A stretch of DNA of 36,423 nucleotides from an uncultured Synergistales bacterium (GTDB lineage: Bacteria; Synergistota; Synergistia; Synergistales; Aminobacteriaceae). The first letter of the stretch is position 1; the number at the start of each line of letters is the position of its first letter. Below the pieces are notes generated by a model, which was given only the letters and a program-made list of their open reading frames with translations, searched no databases and was not told the DNA's origin. A program made the translations under genes and the position numbers. Where the stretch lies: assembly GCA_905233455.1 (NCBI GenBank), contig CAJOES010000005.1, positions 1 through 36,423 of the forward strand. The letters run 5' to 3'. Positions 4,848 to 36,227 of this stretch are shown here, piece by piece.

Positions 4848-7800
4848 ATGAAGAAAATTTTTTGCGTTCTGGTTTGCATTCTTGTGCTGGGATTTTCTGT
4901 TACGGCTGAGGGGGCTTCAAGTAACTCTCAAACATTTACGCTGGGAGGTGATCCTGTTACTATTGGTGAGGATGATTTCGGCCCTTACTACAGCATAACA
5001 GAAGTATTAGATGGAATTTATGGTTACGGAATTGCTAATGTAACTATAGTAATTCCAGATGATTATGATATTGGATATAATGAGGGCAGTTATCTTTTCG
5101 GCGATGGTTATGAAATTGATGATGATATAAACTCGCTGGTTATTCAAGGGTCTAGACCTTCCATTAAGCTGATTGCTCCGTTCGGCGACCGTCATTTTGT
5201 TATTGATGATTCCGTGCCTGTTTTCACACTGAAAAATATAACTCTGGTAAAAAATGAAGAAGAGGACTATGAAGAAGATTCTCCTAATGTAAACGGCGGA
5301 ATAGAAATTACCGGAGGCAGCATAACTTTCGACGGAGTAACCTTCAGGGGACTGAACAGCAAAAGCGGCGGAGTCGTAAGCATAACGGGCGGAACTGTAA
5401 CATTTAAGGGAAGCAGCTTCAATTCATGTTATGCAGATAACGGCGGAACAGTCAGCATAACCGGCGGGACAGTAGATTTTGCCGACAGCACTTTCGATAC
5501 GTGTTCTTCAGACAACGGCGGGGCTGTCAATGTCGCAGGCGGGACAGCATCATTCACCGGAGGCAGCTTCAAGTCATGCAGTGCCAATAACGGCGGGGCT
5601 GTGTATGCTGACAACGGAAGCGTAACGTTTTCCGGCACAGCATTTTCCGGCAACAGTGCGGACAAAGGCGGGGCAATCTACAGCAAGGCTACGTTAAAGC
5701 TGAGTAACGGCACGGCATTTTCCACCAGCAAAAACAAGGCAAGACTCGGAGGGGCTTTGTACATTGAAGGCGGTGAAACTGCAACTGAAGGCACGGTCAA
5801 TTTTGATGGGAATACTGCAGAAGACGGAGGAGCTGTATACATCGAAAATGGTACGTTGAACGCAAATTCGGCTGTAACATTCAGCAGCAATGAAGCATCA
5901 GGAAACGGCGGTGCTGTGTACATTGCAGGAGGCAGCTTTACGGCATCATCTGCAGCATTCGACGGCAATATTTCAGCAGGGGACGGCGGTGCTGTGTATT
6001 CTCCCAACGGAAGCAGTACCGTAACATTTTCCGAAATAACATTTTCCGGCAACAGTGCAGACAGAGGCGGGGCGGTCTACAGCAATTCTGCCATGAACCT
6101 TAATGCAGGCACGAAATTTTCTGCGGCAAACAAGGCAAGATTAGGAGGGGCTTTGTATGTTGCAGGAATGACGGCTACAATCGGCGGAGAGGTTGAGTTC
6201 TCGAGCAATACTGCATCCGAAAACGGCGGTGCTGTGTATCTGGAAAAAGGCAGCATTACCGGGAATGCGGCATCAGATTTCACGGGCAACACGGCATACG
6301 GCAGCGGAGGAGCTATATACATTGCTGGAGGGGGCTTCGCGTCAAGCGCGGCGGACAGCTTCACGAACAACATCGCATACAGCAACGGAGGAGCTGTTTA
6401 CGTTTTTTCCAGTGCCAGAGATAACAGATGGACGGGTAATATTGAATTTACGGGAAACACTGCCGGTACTCTCAAAGCTGAGGGCTGGCCTTCTGATCCC
6501 GAAGAACCTTCTGTAGATGACGGATTCGGCGGTGCGCTGTATATCGGCGGCACAGCGGTATTCAGCGGACAGACTGAGTTCAACAGAAACATGGCCAATA
6601 ACGGAGGAGCAGTATATATACCTTCAGGAGGCGATCTGCAGTTCAGCGAAGTTTCGTATTTCGGCAATAACGAAGGTAATCAGGCATATAACGGCGGTGC
6701 TTTGTATCTTGCGTCAGAAAGTTCAATTACCTTCAGCAACACTGCTGCATTCTCCGGCAATATAGCAAGGAACAGCGGAGGCGCAATAATGGCTGCAGGA
6801 ATGAGACGGTTTAGCTTCTCCTCAGACTACAAATACACTTTCACCGACAACAAAGCCAATTATGATAACGGCTTGAAAGGCGGAGGAGGAGCAATATTCT
6901 GGGGAGCTTCAAATACTTCTTCACTGACATCCGAACTTTCTTCAGCAGATTTCTCCGGTAATACAACAGAAGGAGTCCCTGATATTGACGAAGGAAACGA
7001 TGCCGCTGCAGGAAGCGGAGGTGCATTGTTTATATCATCAGATCAAGGGCTTGTTATAGGTTCTGGTTATAGTTTCGCGAATAATAAAGCCTATAATAAC
7101 GGAGGATCTATATACCTTACAACTGCAGGAATCAGATTTTCCAGCACGAATTTCGATGCGTCTACTTCATCTCAGGCTGTGAACGGGAACGGCGGATTCG
7201 TATATACAGGTGGAGATATTACATTTGAGAACGTTAGTATAGACTGCATCAACATAAAGGCTGAAAAAGGGAACGGCGGCTTTGCTTATGCTGAAGGCAA
7301 GGTAACCATAACCGGCGATTCGGTACTGTATTCCAGTGCATTATCATCTACTGCAAAGAATGCAGGCAATTACGGCGGCTGTGTCTATGCAGAAGGCGAT
7401 ATAACTATAGGAAGCTCGACAATTTACGGTTTCAGGGCAACGGCGGGCGGTGCAGTATACGGAGCAAGCAATATCACTATAACCGGCGGAACTTTAAGAG
7501 ACAATTTAACCAGAGGAAGCGACGCTAATATCGGAGGCGGTGCAGTTTTTGCTGACGGTGATTTTGAGGCAACCGGGACTCTTTTTACCGGGAATCAGCA
7601 CACTTCTGAAGGCGGAAATTCAAACGGAGGAGGAGCTGTATATACTACCGGGAGGCTTACTGTTACGGACTGTATTTTTGAGAGCAACCAAGTCAACACT
7701 ACAGGAAACGGAGGAGCAATCTTACTGAACAATGAATTAACCTCAGAATCCTCAATAACTAATTCACTTTTCAGCGGGGACACTGCACCGGGGGATGGCG

Positions 7801-10073
7801 GGGCTGTCTATGCTATCATTGACGGGACTCTGAATTTTGCGTCGCTTTCATTCGTGAACAACAGTGCCAACGGTGGGGAAGGAGGAGCTGTTTACGTTGC
7901 TACAAGAGACTATTTCAATGTAAGCGGGTCATATTTTTTCAATAACGTTGCACGATCCAGCAATGGCGGAGGAGCTTTGTATTTCTCTCAGCTGCAGGGC
8001 AAAATACGCATTACCGATTCCGTATTCAGGGAAAATTATGCACGTGAAGGGGACGGAGGAGCAGCATATATACAGGCATATGATGGATATATACGCCGCT
8101 GCACGTTTGATACTAACATGGCTTCCCAGCAAACTTCAGATACTAAAGGCGGGGCACTTTACATTGAGACTTCCAATGCAGGAGACATAATAGCGGTCGA
8201 TACGTGTACTTTCTTTGGGAACAGAGCATTAAGCGGCAGTAAGGCGGCCAAAGGAGGAGCTTTGTATACTGTAGGTTTAGTTGACGTGAAAAGCTCTACA
8301 TTTACCAAGAACATAGCACTACTTGGCGGAGCAATTTATGTCAGTGCTGAAAACAGATCCAAAGCCGTACTGAATCTCACTGCAACAATCGCTGTAGAGA
8401 ACTATGAGATTACCGGCAGTGATATTTATCTTGAGGGGGGCGGTGGCATATTCTCAAACGGTTACAACCGTGTCGGTGTAATCTCTAACACAACAGCATC
8501 TTCGTCTGCTACGGACTGGAGTATAGTTGACGGGACTACTGGTACCGACAAGACACCAAAAGACACCAGACCGGAAATACCAGAATGGACAGCAGCAACA
8601 TTCTTCGGGAGCAATGCCGCACTAGCCGTAAATGAAACCAGAAACAGCACATCATCAAACATGCAGCCTCCGTTGGTAGGAGCAGTGCTTGAGGGAATAT
8701 CTGAAGAAGCAAATGAACGCATAAAGACGGTAATGCTTGATGAAGATGATTTGCTCCCTCGTGAGGTCAGAGCAATGGACGCGATCCCGAGAGATATTGC
8801 CGGTATGCTGGATATTGCTGCCACAGACCAGCGCGGAGAGACCAGGCCGCTTCCGGTGGGAGGCCCGCTAGATATAGGAGCATATGAGGTGGATCAGCCC
8901 GGAATCTATGACCCTGAGCACCCAACAGAGAACTTCTCCATACAGAGCGTTTTCATGAGCGGAATACCCAACATCATGCGGAGTCTTGGCCAGACCGTGA
9001 ACCTTATTGCGATGGTGCGTTATGAGAATGGCACGACGACATACAGCAATGCGGACACAGAACCGGTAACATGGTCAAGCAGCAACCAGAATATAGTACG
9101 CATAGACAGCAAAGGGGTTATGACTGCTATTGCCCCCACGCCGGACAATGATTACGTAACTATCAGCGTGAGAACCCGCACGGCATCGGACGGATCATTT
9201 GCTTCGGCAAGCAGTCCTGTAAGGGTTATACTGCAGTACAGCTACATGAATATATCTCCTGAATGGCAGACATATTTTGCTGATTACGTCAGGGATATTG
9301 CCGAGCATGATATAGCCGTTGATATAGCTGACTCTAACTCTTCCTCTGTAAGTTCTTCCAGCTTCCAGAGGAATTTCAAGAAATTATGGAATGCAGGTTC
9401 AGTGAGACAGATAACGAATATTTCAGGAGTAACGCCTGAGTTCGGCACGGCTTCATCGTCAGGCAGTCCCAGCGGTGTTGTGTCAGCAAAAGATGTAGCT
9501 GTGAAAATAAACTATAAGGGCAGAAGCAACGGTGATATTCTCCCGCTGAAATATTTATGGACATTTTCCGGAGAAGAGCTGAATCAGATTCTGCGCAGGG
9601 ACGTAGATATCTCTTCGGCCTCGCTTGCTGATGAGATTTTCCCGGCACTGCAGATAGACTTTGAGGGCGAAAACGGAACATGGACAGTAATAGGCGACGG
9701 CGGGGTCAGTGCTCAGGATGCAGTATCGAGCGGTGCACTGAAACTTACGAAGACAGACGGCGGAAACGGTGTTATGGTGGAACTGACAGCATATCTCGCT
9801 AACGTTGAGGCATCTGACGATAACGGGCCTCAGCTGGTGAAATCTGACAGCAAGAGCCTTCTTGTTGTCCCTGACGGCAACAATGACGGAGCTATTTCCG
9901 GCACTATGTGGATGGCAAAACGTTCATCAGTTACGGTTCAGGCACAAAGCGGTATCCGGTCTGGTGGCTCTGGATCTGATTCCGGTTCAGACTCTGAAGA
10001 CGGAGCAGGCTGTGAGGCTTTAGGGCTTGGCCTTATCGGTGCGGCTGTATTCTTCGCACTCCGCAGAAGATAG
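4848..10073 (+). CDS. Giant right-handed beta-helix Synergist-CTERM protein (1741 aa, Pmp-like repeats)
   Basis: The signal peptide begins MKKIFCVLVC and is probably cut after TAEGA. An acidic, AT-rich leader of about 145 residues follows. From about residue 149 to 1165 come roughly three dozen GG(A/S/F)x(Y/F) motifs, typically GGAVYI, alternating with SGNSA or FxxN turns. This is the pattern of chlamydial polymorphic outer membrane proteins and other parallel beta-helix adhesins. About residue 1338 is GGPLDIGAYE, the 'choice-of-anchor Q' signature; about 1407 is a bacterial Ig-like (Big_2) segment with TWSSSN and DSKGVMTA. The tail is a Ser/Asp/Gly linker, Cys about 1722 (GAGCEAL), a hydrophobic stretch and RRR: a Synergist-CTERM signal. 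GGGAG at 4831-4835 is 12 bases from the ATG. It is the last gene before the terminator at 10091. A surface adhesin or S-layer-like role is inferred. Confidence 0.92.
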   Translation: MKKIFCVLVCILVLGFSVTAEGASSNSQTFTLGGDPVTIGEDDFGPYYSITEVLDGIYGYGIANVTIVIPDDYDIGYNEGSYLFGDGYEIDDDINSLVIQGSRPSIKLIAPFGDRHFVIDDSVPVFTLKNITLVKNEEEDYEEDSPNVNGGIEITGGSITFDGVTFRGLNSKSGGVVSITGGTVTFKGSSFNSCYADNGGTVSITGGTVDFADSTFDTCSSDNGGAVNVAGGTASFTGGSFKSCSANNGGAVYADNGSVTFSGTAFSGNSADKGGAIYSKATLKLSNGTAFSTSKNKARLGGALYIEGGETATEGTVNFDGNTAEDGGAVYIENGTLNANSAVTFSSNEASGNGGAVYIAGGSFTASSAAFDGNISAGDGGAVYSPNGSSTVTFSEITFSGNSADRGGAVYSNSAMNLNAGTKFSAANKARLGGALYVAGMTATIGGEVEFSSNTASENGGAVYLEKGSITGNAASDFTGNTAYGSGGAIYIAGGGFASSAADSFTNNIAYSNGGAVYVFSSARDNRWTGNIEFTGNTAGTLKAEGWPSDPEEPSVDDGFGGALYIGGTAVFSGQTEFNRNMANNGGAVYIPSGGDLQFSEVSYFGNNEGNQAYNGGALYLASESSITFSNTAAFSGNIARNSGGAIMAAGMRRFSFSSDYKYTFTDNKANYDNGLKGGGGAIFWGASNTSSLTSELSSADFSGNTTEGVPDIDEGNDAAAGSGGALFISSDQGLVIGSGYSFANNKAYNNGGSIYLTTAGIRFSSTNFDASTSSQAVNGNGGFVYTGGDITFENVSIDCINIKAEKGNGGFAYAEGKVTITGDSVLYSSALSSTAKNAGNYGGCVYAEGDITIGSSTIYGFRATAGGAVYGASNITITGGTLRDNLTRGSDANIGGGAVFADGDFEATGTLFTGNQHTSEGGNSNGGGAVYTTGRLTVTDCIFESNQVNTTGNGGAILLNNELTSESSITNSLFSGDTAPGDGGAVYAIIDGTLNFASLSFVNNSANGGEGGAVYVATRDYFNVSGSYFFNNVARSSNGGGALYFSQLQGKIRITDSVFRENYAREGDGGAAYIQAYDGYIRRCTFDTNMASQQTSDTKGGALYIETSNAGDIIAVDTCTFFGNRALSGSKAAKGGALYTVGLVDVKSSTFTKNIALLGGAIYVSAENRSKAVLNLTATIAVENYEITGSDIYLEGGGGIFSNGYNRVGVISNTTASSSATDWSIVDGTTGTDKTPKDTRPEIPEWTAATFFGSNAALAVNETRNSTSSNMQPPLVGAVLEGISEEANERIKTVMLDEDDLLPREVRAMDAIPRDIAGMLDIAATDQRGETRPLPVGGPLDIGAYEVDQPGIYDPEHPTENFSIQSVFMSGIPNIMRSLGQTVNLIAMVRYENGTTTYSNADTEPVTWSSSNQNIVRIDSKGVMTAIAPTPDNDYVTISVRTRTASDGSFASASSPVRVILQYSYMNISPEWQTYFADYVRDIAEHDIAVDIADSNSSSVSSSSFQRNFKKLWNAGSVRQITNISGVTPEFGTASSSGSPSGVVSAKDVAVKINYKGRSNGDILPLKYLWTFSGEELNQILRRDVDISSASLADEIFPALQIDFEGENGTWTVIGDGGVSAQDAVSSGALKLTKTDGGNGVMVELTAYLANVEASDDNGPQLVKSDSKSLLVVPDGNNDGAISGTMWMAKRSSVTVQAQSGIRSGGSGSDSGSDSEDGAGCEALGLGLIGAAVFFALRRR
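5592..6386 (+). repeat. Two-copy tandem segment of about 131-134 codons inside the beta-helix gene
   Basis: Unit 1 (5592-5984, 393 bases) and unit 2 (5985-6386, 402 bases) carry the same order of blocks: GGAVY, then TFSGNSAD(K/R)GGA, then NKARLGGALY, then further GGAVY turns. Near-identical DNA runs occur around 5644-5680 and 6043-6080, and around 5734-5760 and 6131-6155. This is a higher-order duplication above the basic coil repeat. Confidence 0.75.
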
Positions 10074-23150: not shown

Positions 23151-23162
23151 ATGATTTTTATT

Positions 23163-25922
23163 ATGTTCAGAAGGCTATTAGCGGCATTATTCCTGATTGT
23201 ATTATTGTGCGGAACTGCATTTGCTGCTGTTGCTACAATCAACTTTGACCCGTTCAGCATGAACACTCGCTATCTTAGTTCGGCAGATCAGGAGTCGGTA
23301 TATTCGCGCTACTATGATTCAGATTTCTTCTATCAGCTCAGGGACATAACAGGAGCGTCAAGACAGTCGCAGGTTGCCGGGCCTCAGTGGTTCGCTACAG
23401 TATACGAGAACTACTACACCACAATGAATGTGCGCAATGCCGGCAACAACAATAACAACAATAATGCTGGCGGGAATCCTGCGCAGGTATACCGCAGGAC
23501 TATGGGCGGAGAAATTCCGGACGTTCCTGTATCTGCAATAGGGGATCTGCTTGACGGGTTCAACTTTGTATTTGCCGAAGAACCCCAGCCTTATGCAGCA
23601 TGGCACAATTTTGTTGATACCAGAGTATATGACACTTACCCTGACCCGTTAGAGAGTCTCTGCATAGTCATCACAGAAGGGCGCGGAGAGTTTAACCTTA
23701 AATTTGCCAACCCTTACGCAAGGCATTTCCCGTTCTGGTGGAACTACAACGGAGTTACGGCAGATTTTGACTGGTCATGGTGGAAGAATGCTTATGACTG
23801 GAGGACTTCTGTATATTATCCGACGGTTGAGCCTATTGCGTACATATATGCTCAGAATGAGGGCAGGATATACCAGCGCGGAGAGAATTACACCTACACA
23901 GCAGCATATACACTCAATGAGGACGCTTCAGGGGATCAGTATATTTCAGATCTGGACGGGACGACTGTAATTCTGAAGATTTCCGGAGACAGCTATTATG
24001 ACAGTGATGACAAGCTAGTGTATACAGTTGAGGATAACCGCGTATACAACTCATCACATGAACTGGCCTATACTCTTGAGTATGCGACAGGTTCAGACAC
24101 TGCAAACTGCGTGTATATCTGCGAACCCAGAGACGTATACGAGACAGTTTCATTCTCAGATTTCGATGACGATTACACAATAACCGTAAGACCTTCAGGA
24201 GAATGGCCGATAAGCTCCACAAACTATTTAGAGACATCAATAAACCTCAACGGGCACATGCCGGACTACGGGAGCAAGCTGGGATATATAGGCTTCAGGC
24301 AGAGGGCGAGCTTCACATCAGGCTACACGAATTACCGGGAGTTCACGAGCATTCCTACGGTTATAGCGAACGTGTCAAACGGCAATGCTTCAACGAATCC
24401 TTTGCTTTTCGACATGACCATTTACGATGATAATAATGATGTCGTTGACAGGGTAAAATTCAACTGGGACGTACAGAGCGACAAGACACAGAATCTCGGA
24501 ACATTCTTCATGATATTTCCGGAGGGCACAGCGCAGGTCAATCCCTACAGGATAGAGACGAGAATCACCAACAACACAGGCACAAGATACGAGCTTTACC
24601 GGTATGACATGATACGCCGCGCGGATCAGGACTCGGATTACCGGGACAATTACCGCAGGATATGGCCGTCATACTGGAGATACAACCTAACGCCTGACCT
24701 TTACGGGACTCTGCCGGACTCGTTCCTTCTGGACGCACAGAGCCAGATAGCTCCGGGACTGGTTACGGTGTACACCAGCAACATGGGAGGAAGCTATGAT
24801 GTCGGGAGCGGGTACACTACGATAGACATGCAGAAGGACACTCAGGAATCTTTCAGGCTGTACGAATATGATGCGAACACTCCCAGAAATCTCCGGCTGA
24901 ACTACAAGCGCATTGCAGGAATGACATCTGCCGGTGCTCCTGAACCTTTGGACGGAGGCATCGGTGAAGTTCAGGGATTCAGTATGCAGTTCGTTGACGT
25001 TCTGGAGAATCAGGAAAATACAGCGGCAGAGATACGCAATATCGTAGGGCAGTATGATGAATACCACAAAGACCCCGCGATGATTCTTCCGGCTTCAAGC
25101 ACCGCAGGCTCTCAGGTATTCTACGTGAATTCTTCTGCGCTGAACTCGTTTTACATCAATAAATCATTTACAGAGGCAGATTTCATTAATCCTCCTGTCT
25201 ATTACCTGCTCGAAACTCCGGAAGAGGCCGAAGAACCTGCTACACAGCCAGCAGAACCTCCCGCAGGAGGTGCATTCATTGCCGCGTATGATCCCAACAA
25301 TGACCATTCCACGCATAGTTCAGACCGTGTTGCGTTGCTGCCGGTGAAGATACGGCTGAAGATACCGAGGGCAAGCACATTCCTTGAGACTCACTGGCAG
25401 GATCTCGAAAATGCTTCAGATTCACGGGAGCTGTTCAACAGGTTCGCTAATTTCGGTGCTGTATGGGTGCGTTCAGATGCGGCAAGGGAGCTTGACACTA
25501 ACCTTTTCACCGCAATAGACAACAAAGGAAACGGTTTCGGAGCAGGAGACTGTGTCAGGGCATACATACACGACAACTATTTATACCTTGACTTTATCGT
25601 TATCATTGCCGACGCAGAAAGCCCGAAGGAAGGCAGGACAGCATTTATTGACGTGATCACTGATGACGGAGTGCCTTATGTCCTTATCGGTGATGGTGCT
25701 GTTGACATGAGATGGGACTTGAAGTTTTATGTTGGTGCAAATGCCGCCAATCCTACAAGCAGTGTGATTTCCGGCGATTCTTCCGGAAGCACGCTCAGGA
25801 GAAATTCATCGAATACAACAGATATAGGATCACTCATTAACAGCCCTTCAGGAGGCTGCAGTCTTGGCTTTCTCGGTATGGCAGGAGTTATGATTTTAGC
25901 TCTGGGTATTAAGAGAAGATAA
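23163..25922 (+). CDS. Large Synergist-CTERM surface/secreted protein (919 aa), paralogue of the 2806 gene
   Basis: The signal peptide (MFRRLLAALFLIVLLCG, likely cut after AFA) is followed by an aromatic- and Asn/Asp-rich body with no domain I recognise. A run of seven Asn (AAC/AAT codons, about 23445-23466) lies near residue 97. A Glu/Pro-rich linker (EEAEEPATQPAEPP, about residue 690) splits the body. The tail is GGCSLGF, a hydrophobic stretch, then GIKRR: a Synergist-CTERM signal. It shares landmarks in the same order with the 677-residue protein at 2806: GEFNLKF, YWRYNL, APGLVTVY, a TFLETHWQD region matching TMVEDRTWW, and MRWDLKFYV matching KWGMTFFI. Extra blocks in the first half explain the greater length. 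It ends a plus-strand run that includes dnaX, dnaE and nnrE, and a terminator follows. Confidence 0.87.
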   Translation: MFRRLLAALFLIVLLCGTAFAAVATINFDPFSMNTRYLSSADQESVYSRYYDSDFFYQLRDITGASRQSQVAGPQWFATVYENYYTTMNVRNAGNNNNNNNAGGNPAQVYRRTMGGEIPDVPVSAIGDLLDGFNFVFAEEPQPYAAWHNFVDTRVYDTYPDPLESLCIVITEGRGEFNLKFANPYARHFPFWWNYNGVTADFDWSWWKNAYDWRTSVYYPTVEPIAYIYAQNEGRIYQRGENYTYTAAYTLNEDASGDQYISDLDGTTVILKISGDSYYDSDDKLVYTVEDNRVYNSSHELAYTLEYATGSDTANCVYICEPRDVYETVSFSDFDDDYTITVRPSGEWPISSTNYLETSINLNGHMPDYGSKLGYIGFRQRASFTSGYTNYREFTSIPTVIANVSNGNASTNPLLFDMTIYDDNNDVVDRVKFNWDVQSDKTQNLGTFFMIFPEGTAQVNPYRIETRITNNTGTRYELYRYDMIRRADQDSDYRDNYRRIWPSYWRYNLTPDLYGTLPDSFLLDAQSQIAPGLVTVYTSNMGGSYDVGSGYTTIDMQKDTQESFRLYEYDANTPRNLRLNYKRIAGMTSAGAPEPLDGGIGEVQGFSMQFVDVLENQENTAAEIRNIVGQYDEYHKDPAMILPASSTAGSQVFYVNSSALNSFYINKSFTEADFINPPVYYLLETPEEAEEPATQPAEPPAGGAFIAAYDPNNDHSTHSSDRVALLPVKIRLKIPRASTFLETHWQDLENASDSRELFNRFANFGAVWVRSDAARELDTNLFTAIDNKGNGFGAGDCVRAYIHDNYLYLDFIVIIADAESPKEGRTAFIDVITDDGVPYVLIGDGAVDMRWDLKFYVGANAANPTSSVISGDSSGSTLRRNSSNTTDIGSLINSPSGGCSLGFLGMAGVMILALGIKRR

Positions 25923-28316: not shown

Positions 28317-29405
28317 CTACTTTGCCTCTATATATCCCTGTTTCACGAGAAGTTCAGCGCATTCAACCGCACCGCCAGCCGCTCCCCTCAATGTGTTGTG
28401 AGAGAGTCCGACAAACTTCCAGTCATATATATTGTCCGTACGCAAACGCCCGATCGTAACACCCATTCCTTTGCCGTAATTCACGTCAAGCGCAACCTGC
28501 GGCCTGTTGTCCTCCTCAAAGTATTTGATGAACTGTTCCGGTGCTGTCGGTAATTTTGCCTCTTGAGGATAGCCCCTAAAGCCGTTGAGTTTCGCTATAA
28601 GTGCCTCTTTGCTTTCCGGTGCTTTGCGGAACTTCACGAATGCCGCCGCTGTGTGTCCGTACAGTACTGGAATGCGTATGCACTGTGCAGAGATTACCGG
28701 TTCTTTTGCCGCGATGATTTCCCCGCCCTGAATGTGCCCGAAAATCTTCAGCGGTTCTTTCTCGCTCTTTTCCTCTTCACCGCTGATGAACGGGATCACA
28801 TTGCCGACCATCTCCGGCCAAGTCTTGAAGTTCTTTCCTGCGCCTGAAATCGCCTGATACGTAGTTACGATGACTTCATACGGTTCATACTCTTTCCATG
28901 CCGCCAATGCAGGTGCGTAGCTCTGAATCGAACAGTTCGGTTTTACCGCAATGAATCCTCTTGAAGTTCCGAGACGTTTGCGCTGTGATGCGATTATGTC
29001 TGAATGCTGGGGATTTATCTCCGGAATTATCATCGGCACGTCAGGTGTCCACCTGTGCGCTGAGTTGTTCGACACTACCGGGGTTTCTGTCCTTGCGTAA
29101 TCCTCCTCAATCTTCTTTATCTCGTCCTTTGAGAGGCTTACGGCACTGAACACAAAATCTACGTCCTTTGCTATACCCTCAACTTCATTGACATCACGAA
29201 GCACTAAGCCTTTGATGTTCTCCGGTACAGGCTCATCAAGAAGCCAACGATCAGCGACAGCCTCACCGTAAGTTTTGCCCTTGCTGTTTGGTGAGGCCGC
29301 AATAACTTTCACGTCAAACCACGGATGATTGCCGAGTATCTGAATGAATCGCTGTCCTACCATTCCCGTAGCACCGAGAACTCCTACATTTAATTTTTTC
29401 TGCAA
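28317..29405 (-). CDS. asd: Aspartate-semialdehyde dehydrogenase, archaeal/fungal-type
   Basis: The 362-residue enzyme makes aspartate semialdehyde from aspartyl phosphate. GVLGATGMVGQRF binds NADP; the active-site Cys is in KPNCSIQSYAP (about residue 157); the catalytic His is in RIPVLYGHTAA. The spelling around the active site and the sequence VSNNSAHRW belong to the archaeal/fungal subgroup rather than the E. coli type. Translation starts at TTG 29405, with AAGGAG 9 bases upstream. It is the first gene of the operon, followed within 2 bases by hom, and is divergent from the PTS gene. The three adjacent enzymes catalyse successive reactions. Confidence 0.95.
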   Translation of the reverse strand: MQKKLNVGVLGATGMVGQRFIQILGNHPWFDVKVIAASPNSKGKTYGEAVADRWLLDEPVPENIKGLVLRDVNEVEGIAKDVDFVFSAVSLSKDEIKKIEEDYARTETPVVSNNSAHRWTPDVPMIIPEINPQHSDIIASQRKRLGTSRGFIAVKPNCSIQSYAPALAAWKEYEPYEVIVTTYQAISGAGKNFKTWPEMVGNVIPFISGEEEKSEKEPLKIFGHIQGGEIIAAKEPVISAQCIRIPVLYGHTAAAFVKFRKAPESKEALIAKLNGFRGYPQEAKLPTAPEQFIKYFEEDNRPQVALDVNYGKGMGVTIGRLRTDNIYDWKFVGLSHNTLRGAAGGAVECAELLVKQGYIEAK

Positions 29406-29447
29406 AGTATTTCACTCCTTCTCAAATTGTCAAAAAATTTTCTGCAT

Positions 29448-29456
29448 AGTATATCA
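29448..29456 (-). promoter_or_regulatory. Predicted extended -10 promoter of asd-hom-lysC
   Basis: On the minus strand TG, one base, TATACT forms an extended -10 about 45 bases before the TTG start of asd. No clear -35 box is visible. Confidence 0.45.
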
Positions 29457-29478
29457 CCTCAATAAAGGCAATTTAGGC

Positions 29479-29484
29479 TATACT
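29479..29484 (+). promoter_or_regulatory. Candidate -10 box of the EIIA gene
   Basis: TATACT lies about 50 bases before ATG 29533. The region at the -35 distance (around 29456) does not match the consensus, so this rests on the -10 alone. Confidence 0.4.
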
Positions 29485-29532
29485 ATTCACACAGCAATAA
29501 ACCTCGCAATCATAGAGAGGAGAATAATAACA

Positions 29533-30027
29533 ATGGCACTATTCGGAAAGAAAGCACCTGCCCCCGTAACATTTCCTGCAACATTGGTTTCACCTGCAAC
29601 CGGTGAATATGTCCCTATGGCAGAACTCAAGGACGCAGCTTTTGCCAGCGGTAAGCTCGGAGTCTGCTGCGGCATCATTCCTTCAGACGGAAACATTTAC
29701 GCTCCTGCTGACGGCGTAGTTTCGGAAGTTACGGACACATCACACGCTCTGGTGATTACTGCCGGAGGAATGGATATACTGATTCATGCGGGAATCCATA
29801 CCGTAAACATGCAGGGCGAAGGCTTCAAGACTGCCGTAAAGCTGGATCATGCCGTGAAGAAGGGAGATTTGATTCTGCAGATGGACTTGTGGAAGGTCAG
29901 GAATTCAGGATATGACTCTACAGTCATTGTAGCAGTATCGAATTCCGATGATTTCGCTGGCGTTGAGGCTGTTGCTAAAGCCGGGAAGATTACTACAGGA
30001 GACGCAATACTGAAGGTCAGCAAGTAA
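29533..30027 (+). CDS. crr: PTS glucose-type EIIA protein, stand-alone
   Basis: The 164-residue protein has the EIIA-Glc fold from residue 14 on. SPATGEYVPM opens the domain, SHALVI holds the first conserved His, and ILIHAGIHTVNMQGEGF carries the phosphorylated His (about residue 92). The usual sequence after it is GIDTV; here the Asp is His. The domain ends GDAILKV. The ATG follows GAGGAG at 10 bases; the frame stays open upstream into the divergent asd gene but that part is not conserved in type. No EIIB, EIIC, HPr or EI gene is nearby, and the gene has its own terminator. It could serve a distant sugar transporter or act as a regulator of other permeases, such as the one downstream; the latter is speculation. 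Confidence 0.9.
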   Translation: MALFGKKAPAPVTFPATLVSPATGEYVPMAELKDAAFASGKLGVCCGIIPSDGNIYAPADGVVSEVTDTSHALVITAGGMDILIHAGIHTVNMQGEGFKTAVKLDHAVKKGDLILQMDLWKVRNSGYDSTVIVAVSNSDDFAGVEAVAKAGKITTGDAILKVSK

Positions 30028-30044: not shown

Positions 30045-30078
30045 AGGGGTGTCATTACGTGATGCCCCTTTTCTTTTT
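30045..30078 (+). terminator. Rho-independent terminator after the EIIA gene
   Basis: A 10-pair stem with two adjacent G-U pairs (30045-30054 with 30060-30069) and a 5-base loop is followed by a T-rich run. Confidence 0.85.
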
Positions 30079-30124
30079 GCAAAAATGCAGTGCTTTACTC
30101 AATGGCAGGTAAAATTATTTTCGC

Positions 30125-30130
30125 TATAAT
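30125..30130 (+). promoter_or_regulatory. Candidate -10 box of the fusion transporter gene
   Basis: A perfect TATAAT lies 55 bases before GTG 30186 and after the terminator. The -35 position (about 30102) is weak, which may mean an activator is needed. Confidence 0.5.
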
Positions 30131-30185
30131 ACTTGCACCCAATCAATAAAATTTTTTCAGGTATAAGAATGGAGGTAAACTCAAA

Positions 30186-32513
30186 GTGAAAAGATTTACA
30201 TGTATTCTTCTCACTGCCCTTCTTGCACTATTTGTGTGCATTCCCGCCATTGCCCAAGAGGCAGAAGTCCCGGTAGCACCTGCAGTTACAGTCTGGAAGT
30301 TCGACAAGCCCGTAACTATCGTATGCCCTTGGGGTGAAGGCGGCGGTGCAGACTCGACACTCCGCGCAATAGTCCCGCTCCTGAAGGATATTCTCGGCGT
30401 TGAAGTGAACGTCCAGAACGTAACAGGAGCAAACGGCATCAACGGCGCAAGGTTCGTGAATGAACAGCCTGCAGACGGCTACACGTTCATGCTTGGGACA
30501 CAGAGCTTCCTGATTCAGGAGGTACAGGGGGTAATGCCATTCAAGTTTCATGAGGAGTTCGTACCTGTTGCACGTCTCGTGAACGCAATCAACGTCATAG
30601 CGGCCTCACGCAAGGCAATGGAGGAGAGAGGCTACAGCAACTTCTCACAGCTCCGCGATTACATCAAGGCACACCCTGCAGGAATCAGCGTAGGAATGCT
30701 CACCAGCACGGGCGTTGATGGTCTTGCACTGCGCCAGGCTCTTGAAGGTCTCGACATTCTTGAAGTCAGCTACCCTAATGGTGCAGGTCTCACGCTTGCA
30801 CTGAACGAGGGACAGATCGACCTCATGATTACGGGAACGGACGAGATTGCAGACCTCATAGCCGCAGGAGACATTACGCCGCTGTTGGTGCTTGCAGAGA
30901 ACAGGATGAACCGTTATCCCAATGTCGAAAGCTCAAAGGAACTCGGCATCAATTCAGTGCTTGGGCCTGAAAGGGGAATTTTCGCGAAGAAAGGTACTCC
31001 GCAGGGTGCTATAGATGCTCTTGCAGGTGCAGTAGAGCAGGCAGTAAAGTCTGATTCATGGCAGGCATTCCTTGAGAAGGGCGGATATGATGAACGCCCC
31101 GGTTTCGCGAACAGTGCGGAATACAAGAATGCTGTAGATGATGAGTTCAAGACATTCACCGACATGCTGAAGCCCGCAAAAGCCCCGGCCAAGAAAGCAG
31201 CTGCCCCGTCAACAAAACTTGCTGTAATAGGTTTCGTGATGGTGTTAGTTCTGATTGTGTGCCTCATCAAGAAAATAGTAATACCGCCTATCGCATTCAT
31301 ACTTCTTCCTACGATTGCGGCATTAGCGGCAGGATTTGACCCGCTCGCTATCAACAAGTTTGCGGCATCAGGAATAAGCAAGATGGTTTCTACGGTGTCA
31401 TTGTTCGTGTTCTCGATTTCATTCTTCTCACTGATGAGCGATCAGGGGGTCTTTGATCCTATAGTGAATTTCCTCATCAAGAAGGCCGGGACAAACGTAA
31501 CCCTCGTACTGCTCGCAACAGCGGCTGTAGCAATCATCGGACACCTTGACGGTTCAGGAGCTACAACATTCATCATAACGATCACAGCAATGCTTCCGCT
31601 GTTCAAGAAACTCAAGATGGACAACAGAGCCTTAATGATGATTATCTGCGTAGGTATCGGAGTCATGAACGTATGTCCTTGGGGCGGCCCGACGATAAGA
31701 GCGGCTACAGTTCTTGAGACGGACCCCAATGCGTTATGGCACAGGCTGCTTCCGGTTCAGGGCGCAATGCTGGTATTCACGTTCGTAATTGCATTCATCA
31801 TGAGCGGAATCCAGAAGAGAAGGATCAAGAAGCTGGGGCTTACTATAGATGATACTGTAGAGGAAGCCAAAGCCGAAGAGACAAAAGCAAAAGTATCAAC
31901 AGCTCTCCAGTGGTACAACTTCATCATAGTTGTTGCAGTAATCGTTGTTCTTATGATGGGACTGCTGAACCCTGCATACACATTCATGCTTGCCCTTGCG
32001 CTGACCCTTCCGTTCAATATCAAGTCTCTGAAGGAGCAGAACGGGAAGCTGAAGAATTACGGTGTTGCCGCAATGTCAATGGTTGTTACGCTGTTTGCGG
32101 CCGGTATCTTTACGGGAGTCCTGAGCGGTACTGGAATGCTTAACGCTATGGCTTCAGCAGTAGTTACGGTAATTCCGCCGGATCTCGGACGGTATACACA
32201 CTTCATCGTTGCGTGCTTTGCTGTGCCTCTCATTATGTGCTTGGGTACGGACAGCTTCTACTTCGGGCTTCTTCCTGTCGTTGTAGGTATTGCATCACAG
32301 TTCGGCGTGAACCCGATGGACGTGGCTTGCGTACTTCTGGTTGCGGAGAACGTCGGCGTTATGATTTCCCCGTTAAGCCCTGCAATGTATCTCGGACTCG
32401 GACTGCTTGAGATTGACGTAGGCGAACACATCAAATACTCTCTTGCGTGGATATGGGGAGTCAGCCTTCTTGCGATCGTTGCCTGCATAGTGCTCGGAGT
32501 TACTCCGCTGTAG
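30186..32513 (+). CDS. Fusion of TctC/Bug-type solute-binding protein and CitMHS-type citrate symporter
   Basis: One uninterrupted frame of 775 residues. Residues 1-24 are a signal peptide or anchor (cut possible after IPAIA). Residues about 35-325 are a tripartite-tricarboxylate (TctC/Bug) binding protein: ITx-type opening KPVTIVCPWGEGGGAD, NVTGANGINGA, PADGYTF, SVGMLTSTGVDG and LIAAGDITPLLVL. A Lys/Ala/Pro linker (about 328-343) follows. Residues about 345-775 form a dozen or so membrane segments with CitMHS signatures GHLDGSGATTF (about 451) and MNVCPWGGPTIRAA (about 494), a family of metal-citrate/proton symporters. TctC partners normally work with TctA and TctB, which are not here. The GTG is preceded by GGAGGT at 9 bases. 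The gene has its own terminator. A likely job is uptake of citrate or a similar acid using a tethered binding protein. Confidence 0.9.
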   Translation: MKRFTCILLTALLALFVCIPAIAQEAEVPVAPAVTVWKFDKPVTIVCPWGEGGGADSTLRAIVPLLKDILGVEVNVQNVTGANGINGARFVNEQPADGYTFMLGTQSFLIQEVQGVMPFKFHEEFVPVARLVNAINVIAASRKAMEERGYSNFSQLRDYIKAHPAGISVGMLTSTGVDGLALRQALEGLDILEVSYPNGAGLTLALNEGQIDLMITGTDEIADLIAAGDITPLLVLAENRMNRYPNVESSKELGINSVLGPERGIFAKKGTPQGAIDALAGAVEQAVKSDSWQAFLEKGGYDERPGFANSAEYKNAVDDEFKTFTDMLKPAKAPAKKAAAPSTKLAVIGFVMVLVLIVCLIKKIVIPPIAFILLPTIAALAAGFDPLAINKFAASGISKMVSTVSLFVFSISFFSLMSDQGVFDPIVNFLIKKAGTNVTLVLLATAAVAIIGHLDGSGATTFIITITAMLPLFKKLKMDNRALMMIICVGIGVMNVCPWGGPTIRAATVLETDPNALWHRLLPVQGAMLVFTFVIAFIMSGIQKRRIKKLGLTIDDTVEEAKAEETKAKVSTALQWYNFIIVVAVIVVLMMGLLNPAYTFMLALALTLPFNIKSLKEQNGKLKNYGVAAMSMVVTLFAAGIFTGVLSGTGMLNAMASAVVTVIPPDLGRYTHFIVACFAVPLIMCLGTDSFYFGLLPVVVGIASQFGVNPMDVACVLLVAENVGVMISPLSPAMYLGLGLLEIDVGEHIKYSLAWIWGVSLLAIVACIVLGVTPL

Positions 32514-32592: not shown

Positions 32593-33237
32593 ATGCGCAA
32601 GTTTTTCTGTGCAGTGGCATTCATGATTATGCTGTGCTCGTGTTCGGAAGCAAAGATTTCTAAGACGACCGTGCAAAAGGCATGGAACAAAGTAGCTAAG
32701 GCTGACGGCTTCAAGGTAATACCTATAACATACGAGAAAAGCCAGTCTCCAAATGCGTGGGTAAAATTCAAGTCAGAAAGCAAATTCAGCGTCCACGTAA
32801 CGCAGGGATTAATGGATATTCTGACCAGTGAGGACGAGATAGCCGGAGTACTCGGTCATGAGATAGGGCACGTAAGGCTTGGCCATTACAGCAAGGGTGT
32901 CGGCGTGGCTGTTGGCAGTGCTGTGGGGAAGACTGTAGCGAGCAATATTCTCGGCTCATTCTTCGGGACAGTCGGTCAGGTCATCGGCAATGTTGGTGTG
33001 AGTGTCGGTGCAAGCCTCGTCGAATCCGGATTCAGCCGCGGGCAGGAGGTAGAAGCGGACGATTACGGGACAGAACTTCTCGTGAAGGCCGGTTATCCTT
33101 CTGACGGGTTATACCGTGCGATGAAGGCATTTGCGGATCATAAGATCATCACAGAACCTAGCGGATTCAATTCACACCCGCCGACAGAAAGAAGACTGCA
33201 GCACCTGAAAGAGAAAGCGAGGTCATTAGCGAAATGA
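32593..33237 (+). CDS. M48-family zinc metalloprotease, probable lipoprotein (LoiP-like)
   Basis: The 214-residue protein has a short signal with a plausible lipobox (LCSC; Cys about residue 17), so it is probably tethered in the envelope facing the periplasm. The zinc site is HEIGH (about residue 89) and the third ligand Glu lies in EVEADDYG. VTQGLMDIL before the site and FNSHPPTERRLQHL at the end are typical of small M48 proteases such as LoiP/YcaL, which handle misfolded outer membrane proteins. A Gly/Val-rich helical insert (about 100-140) lies between zinc site and third ligand. A GGGGAAG site precedes the ATG. Its stop overlaps the start of a Synergist-CTERM protein gene in ATGA, so the two are translated together. 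Confidence 0.92.
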   Translation: MRKFFCAVAFMIMLCSCSEAKISKTTVQKAWNKVAKADGFKVIPITYEKSQSPNAWVKFKSESKFSVHVTQGLMDILTSEDEIAGVLGHEIGHVRLGHYSKGVGVAVGSAVGKTVASNILGSFFGTVGQVIGNVGVSVGASLVESGFSRGQEVEADDYGTELLVKAGYPSDGLYRAMKAFADHKIITEPSGFNSHPPTERRLQHLKEKARSLAK

Positions 33238-34436
33238 TGAACAGAAAAATTTTCGCCGCAATACTTATGATGATATTTGCGGCCTCATGCGCACATTCAT
33301 ATTCCGGCGGTAACGGAACAGAAGCAGATCCCTACACCATAGCAGCACCGGATGATTTAGCTCAAATTGACGGGGAAGCATATTACGCCATTATGGACAA
33401 CATAACGCTTCCGGAAGACTGGGAAACTATACCAGCATTCAGCGGGCATCTTGACGGGAACGATCACACAATCACAGTGAAAGACTCTGTGCTTTTCGGG
33501 ACTGTCAGGGGCAGCATTGAGGCACTCAGGATTGACGGCAGTATCTCACGTGCAGGAGGAGTAGGAGGAATAGCCTTAGAGCTTTGCGGCGGGACAATAG
33601 ATGGCTGTACTGTCAGTGCGGACATTGAGGGCACAAAGTCGGGTGAAGACACTCATGCGGATTCGGGCGGTATTGTGTCTGTAATGCGTTCCGGGGCTAT
33701 CACTAACTGCAATGTTCAGGGGAAAATACGTGTAGAAGGCGTAACTTTTCCGCGCACGGGAGGTATTACGGCCTTAATGTATGGCGGAAAAATCATCAGT
33801 TGTTCAGTTACGGGCGAAATAGAATCAAACGGAGATTCTGCCATTGCCGGAGGGATTGCAGGACAGGCGAATATATCTCCGGATATGGGCATCAGTGAAT
33901 GCACTTTCAGCGGTAAAGTCATAAGCACAAGATATGCCGGAGGGATTACCGGACACTTGAGAGGCGGAAAAATCACGAACAATAATATTATTGCCGGATC
34001 TGAAGTGTCGGGAGCATATTTATCCGGTGGGATTGTCGGGAAGATTGCAGAGACTGCATCACTTAGCGGGAACACCTATACGGGAGCATCATACGGTATA
34101 GGTGAGAATGAAGACGGGATTCCCAGCGATGAAGGGTGTACGCGCATTACTGAGGAAGATACGCAGGGAGAGTCCTCAAATGATGGTGAACAGCCTAAAG
34201 GAACGCAAGAAAGCCCGGTAGAAGATAATGAACAGCCTAAAGAGACGCAGAAAGATAACGAGACGGCCAATGATGACACTCAAGGCCAGCCCGTTACGGA
34301 GGAGCAGGAAGACAGTACAGACACCACAGCCGGAAACAGTAATGCTTCAGGTTCAGGAGGAGGAGGCTGTAATACCGGGATAGGATTCATGATTGCGTAT
34401 GTTCTGTCTGCACGGCGTTTTTTTGCGCGAAAATAA
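33234..34436 (+). CDS. GLUG-repeat Synergist-CTERM protein (400 aa)
   Basis: The gene begins at ATG 33234, overlapping the M48 gene by four bases (a second ATG at 33237 also fits). The signal peptide MMNRKIFAAILMMIF is cut perhaps near SCAHS. SGGNGTEADPYTIA opens a region common in exported beta-helix proteins. Six GG(I)-type repeats of GLUG kind follow (about residues 100-290), for example GGITALMYGGKIISCSVTG and GGITGHLRGGKITN. About 80 residues of Glu/Gln/Thr-rich linker with repeated EQPK(G/E)TQ motifs precede the tail: GSGGGGCNTGI, a hydrophobic stretch and RRFFARK, a Synergist-CTERM signal. It is probably surface exposed. The protease partner may process, mature or quality-control it; that is inference from the overlap only. 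Confidence 0.85.
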   Translation: MMNRKIFAAILMMIFAASCAHSYSGGNGTEADPYTIAAPDDLAQIDGEAYYAIMDNITLPEDWETIPAFSGHLDGNDHTITVKDSVLFGTVRGSIEALRIDGSISRAGGVGGIALELCGGTIDGCTVSADIEGTKSGEDTHADSGGIVSVMRSGAITNCNVQGKIRVEGVTFPRTGGITALMYGGKIISCSVTGEIESNGDSAIAGGIAGQANISPDMGISECTFSGKVISTRYAGGITGHLRGGKITNNNIIAGSEVSGAYLSGGIVGKIAETASLSGNTYTGASYGIGENEDGIPSDEGCTRITEEDTQGESSNDGEQPKGTQESPVEDNEQPKETQKDNETANDDTQGQPVTEEQEDSTDTTAGNSNASGSGGGGCNTGIGFMIAYVLSARRFFARK

Positions 34437-34452
34437 CGAGTTAAGCTATAAT
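34423..34452 (+). promoter_or_regulatory. Predicted promoter of the 34499 gene
   Basis: TTGCGC at 34423-34428, an 18-base spacer, and a perfect TATAAT at 34447-34452. The -35 box lies inside the end of the preceding gene. Confidence 0.6.
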
Positions 34453-34498
34453 GTGAAAGATTTTGGCACATCATGAACATGAAGAGCAGGTGAAAATT

Positions 34499-35311
34499 TT
34501 GTCCGGAAAGAGAACAAAAACGTTAATTATTACGTTACTTTCATTGAATCTTATTATACACGCTGCAGAAGCGGCGCAGTCAAACGGCGCGGTCAGATAT
34601 ACGGGAGCTGTTATGAATGCGTATCAGCAGGTTTATGCTATGAACTTTGAGATATGGCGGCCTTCAGATCTTCCTGCAGGTTGGTACGCAACATTTGACG
34701 GTTTCCCGGTTGCGCAGATAGCCGAGAACAGGTGGGTTTACGGTCAGATGGGCATTGACGGCGTACTGAAGCCCACGAATGTGCTTGTAGGTTCAGTTGT
34801 TCCCGCGAATGTTCCCGGGCTTGCGCGTATTGCTTCGGTGTGGACTTTCGGAAAGGCTGTCAGTTCTCCGGAGTTTCAGAAGATAAAGGATTACAGGATT
34901 AACCGCATGGGCTGGCTGAACTATGAAGGAATAAGCACGATAATAGCATGGAACACGCACAGGCCGGAGGTGTATGTGTGGCTCGGCAACAGGTGGAAGA
35001 GGCTTGAACCCAACACCGGCGAATATACATGGCAGATGCTGAAGAGAGTCAGCCCGTGGATAGCCAATGAACTGCGCAAAAACGGCGTATGGTATCAGGG
35101 AGGCGAACCCATAGAAGCGGCAGACATGGCTCGGCAAATGGGCTATATCTGGGGCGGCAAAGTGATTCTGGAGAGCCTGAAGACCTACAGGGACAGCAAC
35201 AGCCACGAAAGCAGTAATGTAACCTCAATGCGTGAGTCATCAAGCGGCAGTTCCGGCAGTACACCTCAAGAACCGTCGCGTAACAACAACTCAAACTGGG
35301 ACGTAGACTGA
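34499..35311 (+). CDS. Exported protein of unknown family (270 aa)
   Basis: I do not recognise this family. The start chosen is TTG 34499, with AGGTGA (34488-34493) just upstream; GTG 34490 is a fair alternative, while TTG 34463 lies too close to the predicted transcription start. The N-terminus MSGKRTKTLIITLLSLNLII with a likely cut after HAAEA is a signal peptide. The body is rich in Trp, Tyr and Asn (WRPSDLPAGWY, NRWVYGQMG, VYVWLGNRWKRL), suggesting a folded beta-rich periplasmic or surface domain. The last 45 residues are Ser/Asn-rich and disordered. There is no Synergist-CTERM tail. A TPR-like gene follows after 16 bases, so the two are probably cotranscribed. Confidence 0.75.
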   Translation: MSGKRTKTLIITLLSLNLIIHAAEAAQSNGAVRYTGAVMNAYQQVYAMNFEIWRPSDLPAGWYATFDGFPVAQIAENRWVYGQMGIDGVLKPTNVLVGSVVPANVPGLARIASVWTFGKAVSSPEFQKIKDYRINRMGWLNYEGISTIIAWNTHRPEVYVWLGNRWKRLEPNTGEYTWQMLKRVSPWIANELRKNGVWYQGGEPIEAADMARQMGYIWGGKVILESLKTYRDSNSHESSNVTSMRESSSGSSGSTPQEPSRNNNSNWDVD

Positions 35312-35327
35312 TCCGGGGGTGGCATTA

Positions 35328-36227
35328 ATGGCAGACAAAAACAAGAAAGCAAGAATAAGCCAGCTTCTGCAAATGGCATGGGCAACAAAAAGCCGGGCAA
35401 GGATTCTTGCAATAGCTAACCAGATATTAGAACTTGATCCGGACAACACTGAAGCACTTATGATAAAGGCAGACAGCACAGACGATGCAGACACGAGGGT
35501 AACTCTTTTGCAGAAAGCTCTTGACTCTCTGGACAAGCCGGACAGCTACAGCCAAGAAGACAGGGATATGTTTTTCCTTGTGCTGAATCAGAGAATGGCA
35601 TATACGTTTTTTGCGGTGAACAACATAGAAAAAGCGTTTGAGTTCTGCGAGACTGCACTGAAATTTGAGGAGGGACACGGGAATCTCGGTGATATGGACG
35701 ATGACGGCGCAATGAAGAGCCTGTATTACCGGATACTGATAGAGCGTAAAGACTGGCAGAAGATTCTTGCGGAGACTCTGAGGGATGACGAGCATTCGCT
35801 TGCATGGGGCTATGCCCGCCTTGTTGCGGCATGGATGATAGCTCCGGATAACGGGCAGGCTGTGTGCGCAAATATGTTCTGGGACGTGCTGATGATTTCT
35901 CCTGATGTTCCGTTCTACATGCTGGGATATTTCCCTGAACCAGACGAAAACGACGAAATTAGCGCGCATGAGGCCTTTGACTTTGCGCTGATGTTCTATG
36001 ATGTTATCTCGGTGTCTGATGATTTCTTCCGTTGGTTCTCGCGTGGCGTAATACTTTTCGGGCTGTTGTCCGGAAGATTCGACGAGAAAGAACGGGAATA
36101 TATGCTTGATGTTATTGACACTCTCGGAGGCTATGAGGAATACGAGAGAATGAGCAGTATTATTGTTGAAGGCGATGATGAAGCAGTGATTGAGATGCTT
36201 GCGGCTAATAAATGTCTTGCAGAATAA
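35328..36227 (+). CDS. TPR-like helical protein, cytoplasmic, function unknown
   Basis: ATG 35328 follows a GGGGGTGG site at about 6 bases; an in-frame GTG at 35319 would lie inside that site. The 299-residue product has no signal peptide. Residues 20-55 read as a tetratricopeptide-like hairpin (ANQILELDPDNTEALMIKA), and a second unit follows at about 88-115 (AYTFFAVNNIEKAFEFCETALKFEEG). The rest is acidic and helical. TPR proteins usually act as binding scaffolds; the partner is not apparent. It lies between an exported protein gene and a Lon-related protease gene, in the same direction and with short gaps. Confidence 0.75.
   Translation: MADKNKKARISQLLQMAWATKSRARILAIANQILELDPDNTEALMIKADSTDDADTRVTLLQKALDSLDKPDSYSQEDRDMFFLVLNQRMAYTFFAVNNIEKAFEFCETALKFEEGHGNLGDMDDDGAMKSLYYRILIERKDWQKILAETLRDDEHSLAWGYARLVAAWMIAPDNGQAVCANMFWDVLMISPDVPFYMLGYFPEPDENDEISAHEAFDFALMFYDVISVSDDFFRWFSRGVILFGLLSGRFDEKEREYMLDVIDTLGGYEEYERMSSIIVEGDDEAVIEMLAANKCLAE

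Follow-up and report, generated by a model that had tools for sequence, protein, structure and literature searches.

A predicted one-chain, binding-protein-dependent transporter: a TctC/Bug-type domain fused to a CitMHS-family permease in a genus of Synergistota

The fused gene and its surroundings

The window analysed here, the whole 36,423-nucleotide stretch of contig CAJOES010000005.1 from an uncultured Synergistales bacterium (assembly GCA_905233455.1), carries a single open reading frame of 775 codons, free of internal stops, in which a signal peptide, a TctC/Bug-type solute-binding protein (SBP) domain, a Lys/Ala/Pro linker and a CitMHS-family permease domain follow one another (Table 1). 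The start codon is GTG, and a purine-rich AGGAGG-type site lies 5' of the start in nearly all relatives of the gene.

Table 1. Coordinates of the features of the fusion locus and of other large reading frames of the window
Feature	Position	Strand	Basis or detail
Large reading frames of 692, 923, 400, 282 and 302 aa	2761-4839, 23151-25922, 33234-36227	+	
1741-aa protein	4848-10073	+	many Chlamydia-type polymorphic membrane protein repeats (PF02415, 9e-41)
PTS EIIA-Glc-type gene	29344-30027	+	directly upstream of the fusion gene
Terminator-like hairpin between the PTS EIIA and fusion genes	30045-30069	+	11-bp stem, then a T run
Promoter-like site ATGGCA-17-TATAAT	30102-30130	+	10/12 matches; weak, consensus sites in the region being no commoner than in shuffles
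Ribosome-binding site GGAGGT	30171-30176	+	read directly from the sequence
Fusion reading frame	30186-32513	+	
Signal peptide, aa 1-23 (MKRFTCILLTALLALFVCIPAIA, then Q)	30186-30254	+	read directly from the sequence
TctC/Bug-type solute-binding domain, aa 40-330	30303-31175	+	Pfam, PDB sequence relatives, fold match
Lys/Ala/Pro linker, aa 327-343 (MLKPAKAPAKKAAAPST)	31164-31214	+	low complexity, low pLDDT
CitMHS-family permease domain, aa 344-775	31215-32510	+	TIGR00784, PF03600, motifs
Intrinsic-terminator-like hairpin directly past the stop codon	32537-32566	+	11-bp stem, then TTTTTT; count compatible with chance

The signal peptide features a basic n-region, a hydrophobic core and an AIA-type cleavage site (IPAIA before Q) and contains no canonical lipobox; its pattern is kept across the genus, while its sequence itself is not conserved. 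In the binding half, the Pfam model PF03401 (TctC) matches residues 66-323 (81.5 bits for a cut-off of 27; 9.4e-23), sequence relatives are found in the PDB (25hk, 5oei, 6hke and 2f5x), and the CPWGxGGGADSTxR binding loop is retained together with other cleft residues. The permease half is matched by PF03600 (CitMHS) over residues 363-720 (76.6 bits, cut-off 31.9) and by the NCBIfam model TIGR00784 (citMHS) over residues 345-772 (275 bits, curated cut-off 259.7), retains the family-invariant HLDG, PWGGP and TD motifs, and is a complete CitMHS permease with a remote likeness to DctM (a weak PF06808 match of 31.8 bits). The linker is present in 30 of 30 aligned relatives, where its length varies and the frame is always kept. 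A preliminary description of this DNA had proposed a signal peptide, a TctC/Bug domain, a linker at about 31170-31220 and a CitMHS symporter on one chain; the domain searches that it suggested confirm both halves, the linker was located at 31164-31214, and the frame runs through it without a stop.

The fusion gene probably forms its own transcription unit, since terminator-like hairpins lie on both sides and are accompanied by a promoter-like site. The host possesses a PTS, as indicated by five EIIC matches in the genome, and a regulatory link between the upstream PTS EIIA-Glc-type gene and the transporter is possible. Downstream lies an M48 peptidase gene (Pfam), and both neighbours recur in several, but not all, of the relatives' loci. 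Elsewhere in the window, the large reading frames of 692, 923, 400, 282 and 302 residues have no Pfam match at 1e-3, and some of them are conserved in the relatives' loci.

Distribution, conservation and descent

The preliminary description had suggested a search for the same architecture in other Synergistota. In a phylum sample of 188 Synergistota genomes, the host genus is represented by 43, of which 32 carry the fusion (31 full-length, and one, G078, cut by a contig end); it was found in none of the 145 others. A sample of about 1,550 genomes drawn from four further classes likewise gave no fusion; these were the classes of a Sphaerochaetaceae genome (395 genomes), of a Clostridium symbiosum genome (391), of a Rhodospirillum-labelled genome (385) and of a Veillonella genome (380), and scoring covered the two top candidates of each genome, among which a fusion would be expected to rank first. 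It was found neither in 12 further genomes examined nor in 68 CitMHS loci outside the genus, in which no TctC adjoins the permease, and among 72,556 plasmid records a single one, from Roseomonas mucosa, covers both halves, as separate genes. In the genomes covered by these searches, the fusion is limited to a single genus. One candidate, G1695, was rejected: its match began inside the SBP half, yet inspection revealed no TctC.

Within the genus, the fusions share 68-84% identity, and one species (G051) carries two copies. Named records of these proteins come from rumen, gut and faecal Synergistaceae, one being labelled uncultured Fretibacterium. Across 30 aligned relatives, 83 of 295 positions are invariant in the SBP half and 304 of 431 in the permease half, and the median dN/dS, computed over 117 pairs, amounts to 0.14 in the binding half against 0.07 in the permease half; both halves are under purifying selection. 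These observations bear on the trivial explanation that an assembly error or a frameshift joined two neighbouring genes, a concern for a source genome that is a draft of 166 contigs. Thirty-one further genomes from separate species keep the open frame, which in one of them is truncated at a contig end, and the linker differs in length among relatives while always staying in frame. Because the open frame recurs across the genus, and both halves show constrained dN/dS values, chance and artefact were ruled out, with a residual likelihood that we consider negligible.

Phylogenetic trees set the fused SBPs apart from every free TctC of their subfamily (branch support 100/100) and gather the fused permeases into one clade (100/100). 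The nearest stand-alone relatives of the fused permease, 56-59% identical, belong to another Synergistota family and to Lachnospiraceae, and no TctC adjoins them. Given the single clade of fused permeases and the separation of the fused SBPs from free TctC, the phylogeny would be explained most simply by one fusion event followed by vertical descent.

The two partners also occur together as unfused genes. In G060, a member of the genus (89% complete) in which no fusion was found, a CitMHS gene and, behind it on that strand, a TctC gene (L039:4504-6807, G060:C246) are separated by 15 bp, and a ribosome-binding site lies between them. This CitMHS is 38% identical to the fused permease and falls in a different clade, with Lachnospiraceae proteins, and the TctC (56%) groups with citrate-type TctC. 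As the permease comes from another clade and the gene order is reversed, the trees and gene order indicate that TctC and CitMHS were brought together twice, in opposite orders. This pairing, found in one genome and nowhere else in the phylum, is the strongest evidence in our analysis that the halves cooperate. On the Roseomonas mucosa plasmid (NZ_CP025064.1, 60352-62994, L212), separate TctC and CitMHS genes lie 363 bp apart, and genes for HMG-CoA lyase and CoA transferase are found upstream of them. They may represent a third, looser pairing, or chance, since proteobacteria can hold very many TctC genes.

Fold, proposed mechanism and substrate

The SBP half was poorly modelled in a first AlphaFold2 run; with a few distant TctC sequences added, the mean pLDDT was 81.2, with low values in the linker (block means of 67 and 32). 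Foldseek assigned the N-terminal half of this model to the Bug/TctC fold (TM-scores of 0.86 with 2dvz, 0.85 with 5oei and 2f5x, and 0.84-0.85 with 6hke) and the C-terminal half to the DASS/TRAP-M fold (0.71 and 0.68 with VcINDY, 4f35_B and 6okz_B; 0.68 with SiaQM, 7qha_B; 0.63 with human NaCT). The permease half also matches the elevator transporters Pho90 and SiaQM/IseQM, and the model points to an elevator-type permease whose motion is suggested by the fold. Another fold match of this half is PDB entry 9a59, an integrative model titled MLEN-METQ, whose title hints at a further case of a binding protein associating with a secondary transporter. The preliminary description had suggested structure prediction as a check on whether the binding lobe docks on the outer face; at a pTM of 0.57 and with a low-confidence linker, the docking pose is unreadable.

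Topology was deduced from charge bias and homology. The cytoplasmic side is marked by loops rich in Lys and Arg, after the first helix (KK) and at residues 473-482, 547-574 and 609-617. This would place the N-terminus of the first helix, and with it the linker end of the permease, outside the membrane, the position that the linker has to occupy if the SBP is exported. The N-terminus of DctM is likewise periplasmic (PMC5812351), so an SBP could be joined to a CitMHS permease without an extra helix.

We propose, with a probability of roughly two in three, that the fusion is a one-chain secondary transporter that depends on its binding protein and takes up a tricarboxylate, citrate being the likeliest. 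The TctC-type domain, directed over the inner membrane by the signal peptide, would bind the anion in the periplasm; the flexible Lys/Ala/Pro tether would attach this domain to the first transmembrane helix at that helix's periplasmic N-terminus, allowing it to pass the anion to the CitMHS permease beneath. An elevator motion of the permease, coupled to an H+ or cation gradient, would bring the substrate into the cell. High affinity and direction would be conferred by the SBP, as in TRAP and TTT systems, and a small DctQ/TctB subunit would not be needed, each permease having its own capture domain. Both the hand-over from SBP to permease and the nature of the coupling ion, H+ or a cation, are predicted features. 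The proposal is supported by the single conserved reading frame, the selection acting on both halves, the fused clades, the elevator fold match and the G060 pairing, and by the precedent of the TAXI-GltS mechanism (PMC12344293).

Several points speak against the proposal: the docking pose is unreadable, the fusion gene has no citrate genes next to it, the 68 CitMHS loci outside the genus show no adjoining TctC, and stand-alone CitMHS carriers work without a binding protein, so the SBP domain may be dispensable. The CitMHS half could then be self-sufficient, the tethered domain merely raising the local substrate concentration, serving as an anchor or being partly vestigial. Such a role would fit the stand-alone CitMHS homologues, up to 59% identical, that have no neighbouring TctC, and the faster evolution of the SBP half (83/295 against 304/431 invariant residues), but we judge it unlikely in view of the purifying selection on that half (dN/dS of 0.14), the retention of its CPWGxGGGADSTxR loop and other cleft residues, and the second, independent TctC/CitMHS pairing in G060.

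The genome also contains separate tctA and tctB genes, whose presence the preliminary description had proposed to check: TctABC occurs as three complete sets, and a partial TctA lies at a contig end, so that the fused domain is not the sole TctC. The SBP half might consequently serve one of these TctAB permeases, with the CitMHS domain reduced to a membrane anchor or an unrelated passenger, and orphan TctC proteins without their own membrane partner are known in other bacteria (PMC5812351). This reading appears highly improbable to us: every complete TctAB is accompanied by a TctC of its own, adjacent or close by, the fused SBPs split cleanly from the TTT-partnered ones (100/100), and the permease half is the better conserved of the two and keeps its invariant motifs, which an anchor would not require.

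Clues to the substrate of the proposed one-chain transporter come from gene neighbourhoods. The closest free TctC in the host genome, 61% identical, heads a TctC-TctB-TctA-citD-citE-citF operon on contig 11 (TctA, TctB, the CitD-type ACP and the CitE-type lyase were confirmed by Pfam, CitF by a genome search). In G076, and in G931 and G648 from the Clostridia sample, members of the same TctC subfamily have citrate-lyase genes beside them, TctA is followed by citrate-lyase genes in G117, and CitMHS genes adjoin citrate-lyase genes in G105, G120 and G1682. Because the nearest TctC relatives and CitMHS genes both recur beside citrate lyase, a tricarboxylate, most likely citrate, is the best guess. 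The same mechanism could act on another C4-C6 di- or tricarboxylate, e.g. tricarballylate, malate or a metal-citrate complex: the carboxylates bound by TctC proteins are diverse, malate (6hke) and oxoadipate (5oei) being the ligands of solved relatives, and neither citrate-lyase nor other citrate genes lie beside the fusion gene. We regard such a substrate as possible but somewhat doubtful, since the closest TctC relatives adjoin citrate lyase in several lineages and the proximity of CitMHS to citrate lyase recurs.

Two further kinds of TctC were encountered. G078 (L198:3113-4306) and G076 (L199:3402-4577) encode TctC proteins of about 390 residues with roughly 100 extra N-terminal residues, one of the two carrying ...NWGVGVRHHEHKEHSDNNS; their genes have either a normal TctC and TctBA or citDEF as neighbours, and look like duplicated, remodelled TctC genes. 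TctC/Bug-type binding protein genes are also carried by three IMG/VR viral contigs (L222, L223 and L224), and predicted Caudovirales proteins of this kind occur in the viral fold library.

Comparison with known transport systems

To our knowledge, TRAP and TTT systems were until 2025 the only secondary transporters known to use binding proteins. The fusion shares its SBP family with TTT systems (TctCBA, TC 2.A.80), its nearest paralogue being the TctC of the TctCBA-citrate-lyase operon, but differs from them in having a CitMHS permease instead of TctA, no TctB, and a tethered rather than free SBP. TctA (12 TM, PF01970) has no match in the fusion protein, PF01970 being found elsewhere in the genome, and TctB (small, 4 TM, PF07331) has none in the fusion protein or its neighbours in the window.

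With TRAP systems (DctPQM, SiaPQM, TC 2.A.56), the fusion would share dependence on a binding protein and a periplasmic N-terminus, as in the M subunit, along with the elevator fold of the large membrane domain. It differs in lacking DctQ and in drawing its SBP from another family, TctC, and the DctM-specific model TIGR00786 gives 18.7 bits against a cut-off of 268.45. The whole permease domain is that of the CitMHS symporters (TC 2.A.11, TIGR00784, above the curated cut-off), and transport of citrate or metal-citrate with H+ or a cation, as in CitMHS, is predicted. Known CitMHS carriers, by contrast, stand alone, whereas this permease is preceded by a signal peptide and some 290 residues of binding domain.

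The closest parallel is the TAXI-GltS fusion of Lachnospiraceae, described together with the BP0403-GltS pair of Bordetella by Jaques et al. 2025, in which the coupling from SBP to permease is putative so far (PMC12344293). In both cases, an N-terminal SBP domain precedes a C-terminal secondary transporter of modelled elevator type without a small Q/B subunit, and the fusion is rare, occurs mostly in one bacterial group and is accompanied by unfused operon pairs. The partners differ: a TAXI SBP and a GltS glutamate permease there; TctC/Bug and CitMHS, with citrate as the predicted substrate, in Synergistota here. TAXI and GltS domains are not found in our protein, its Pfam matches being to TctC and CitMHS, and the TAXI-GltS design itself (a secreted N-terminal SBP, a C-terminal elevator-type transporter and no Q/B subunit) is recovered in its domain order, folds and conservation. 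The preliminary description had suggested a secondary transporter that depends on a binding protein, differs in design from the TRAP and TTT systems and has no described example known to its author. The first part stands as the best-supported reading, on indirect grounds, and the open-licence literature yielded no description of a TctC-CitMHS fusion; the design itself has a parallel in TAXI-GltS (PMC12344293).

The authors of that work proposed that an elevator mechanism permits the use of SBPs and that further classes would allow a test (PMC12344293). The TctC-CitMHS chain offers such a class, given its elevator fold in the model and its SBP-free stand-alone relatives, which, at 56-59% identity, are natural controls. 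Its one-chain layout eases tests of hand-over, directionality and the dispensability of the small subunit, and it bears on why only some pumps use capture proteins. The fusion is not categorically new, and constitutes another case of the design seen in TAXI-GltS (PMC12344293).
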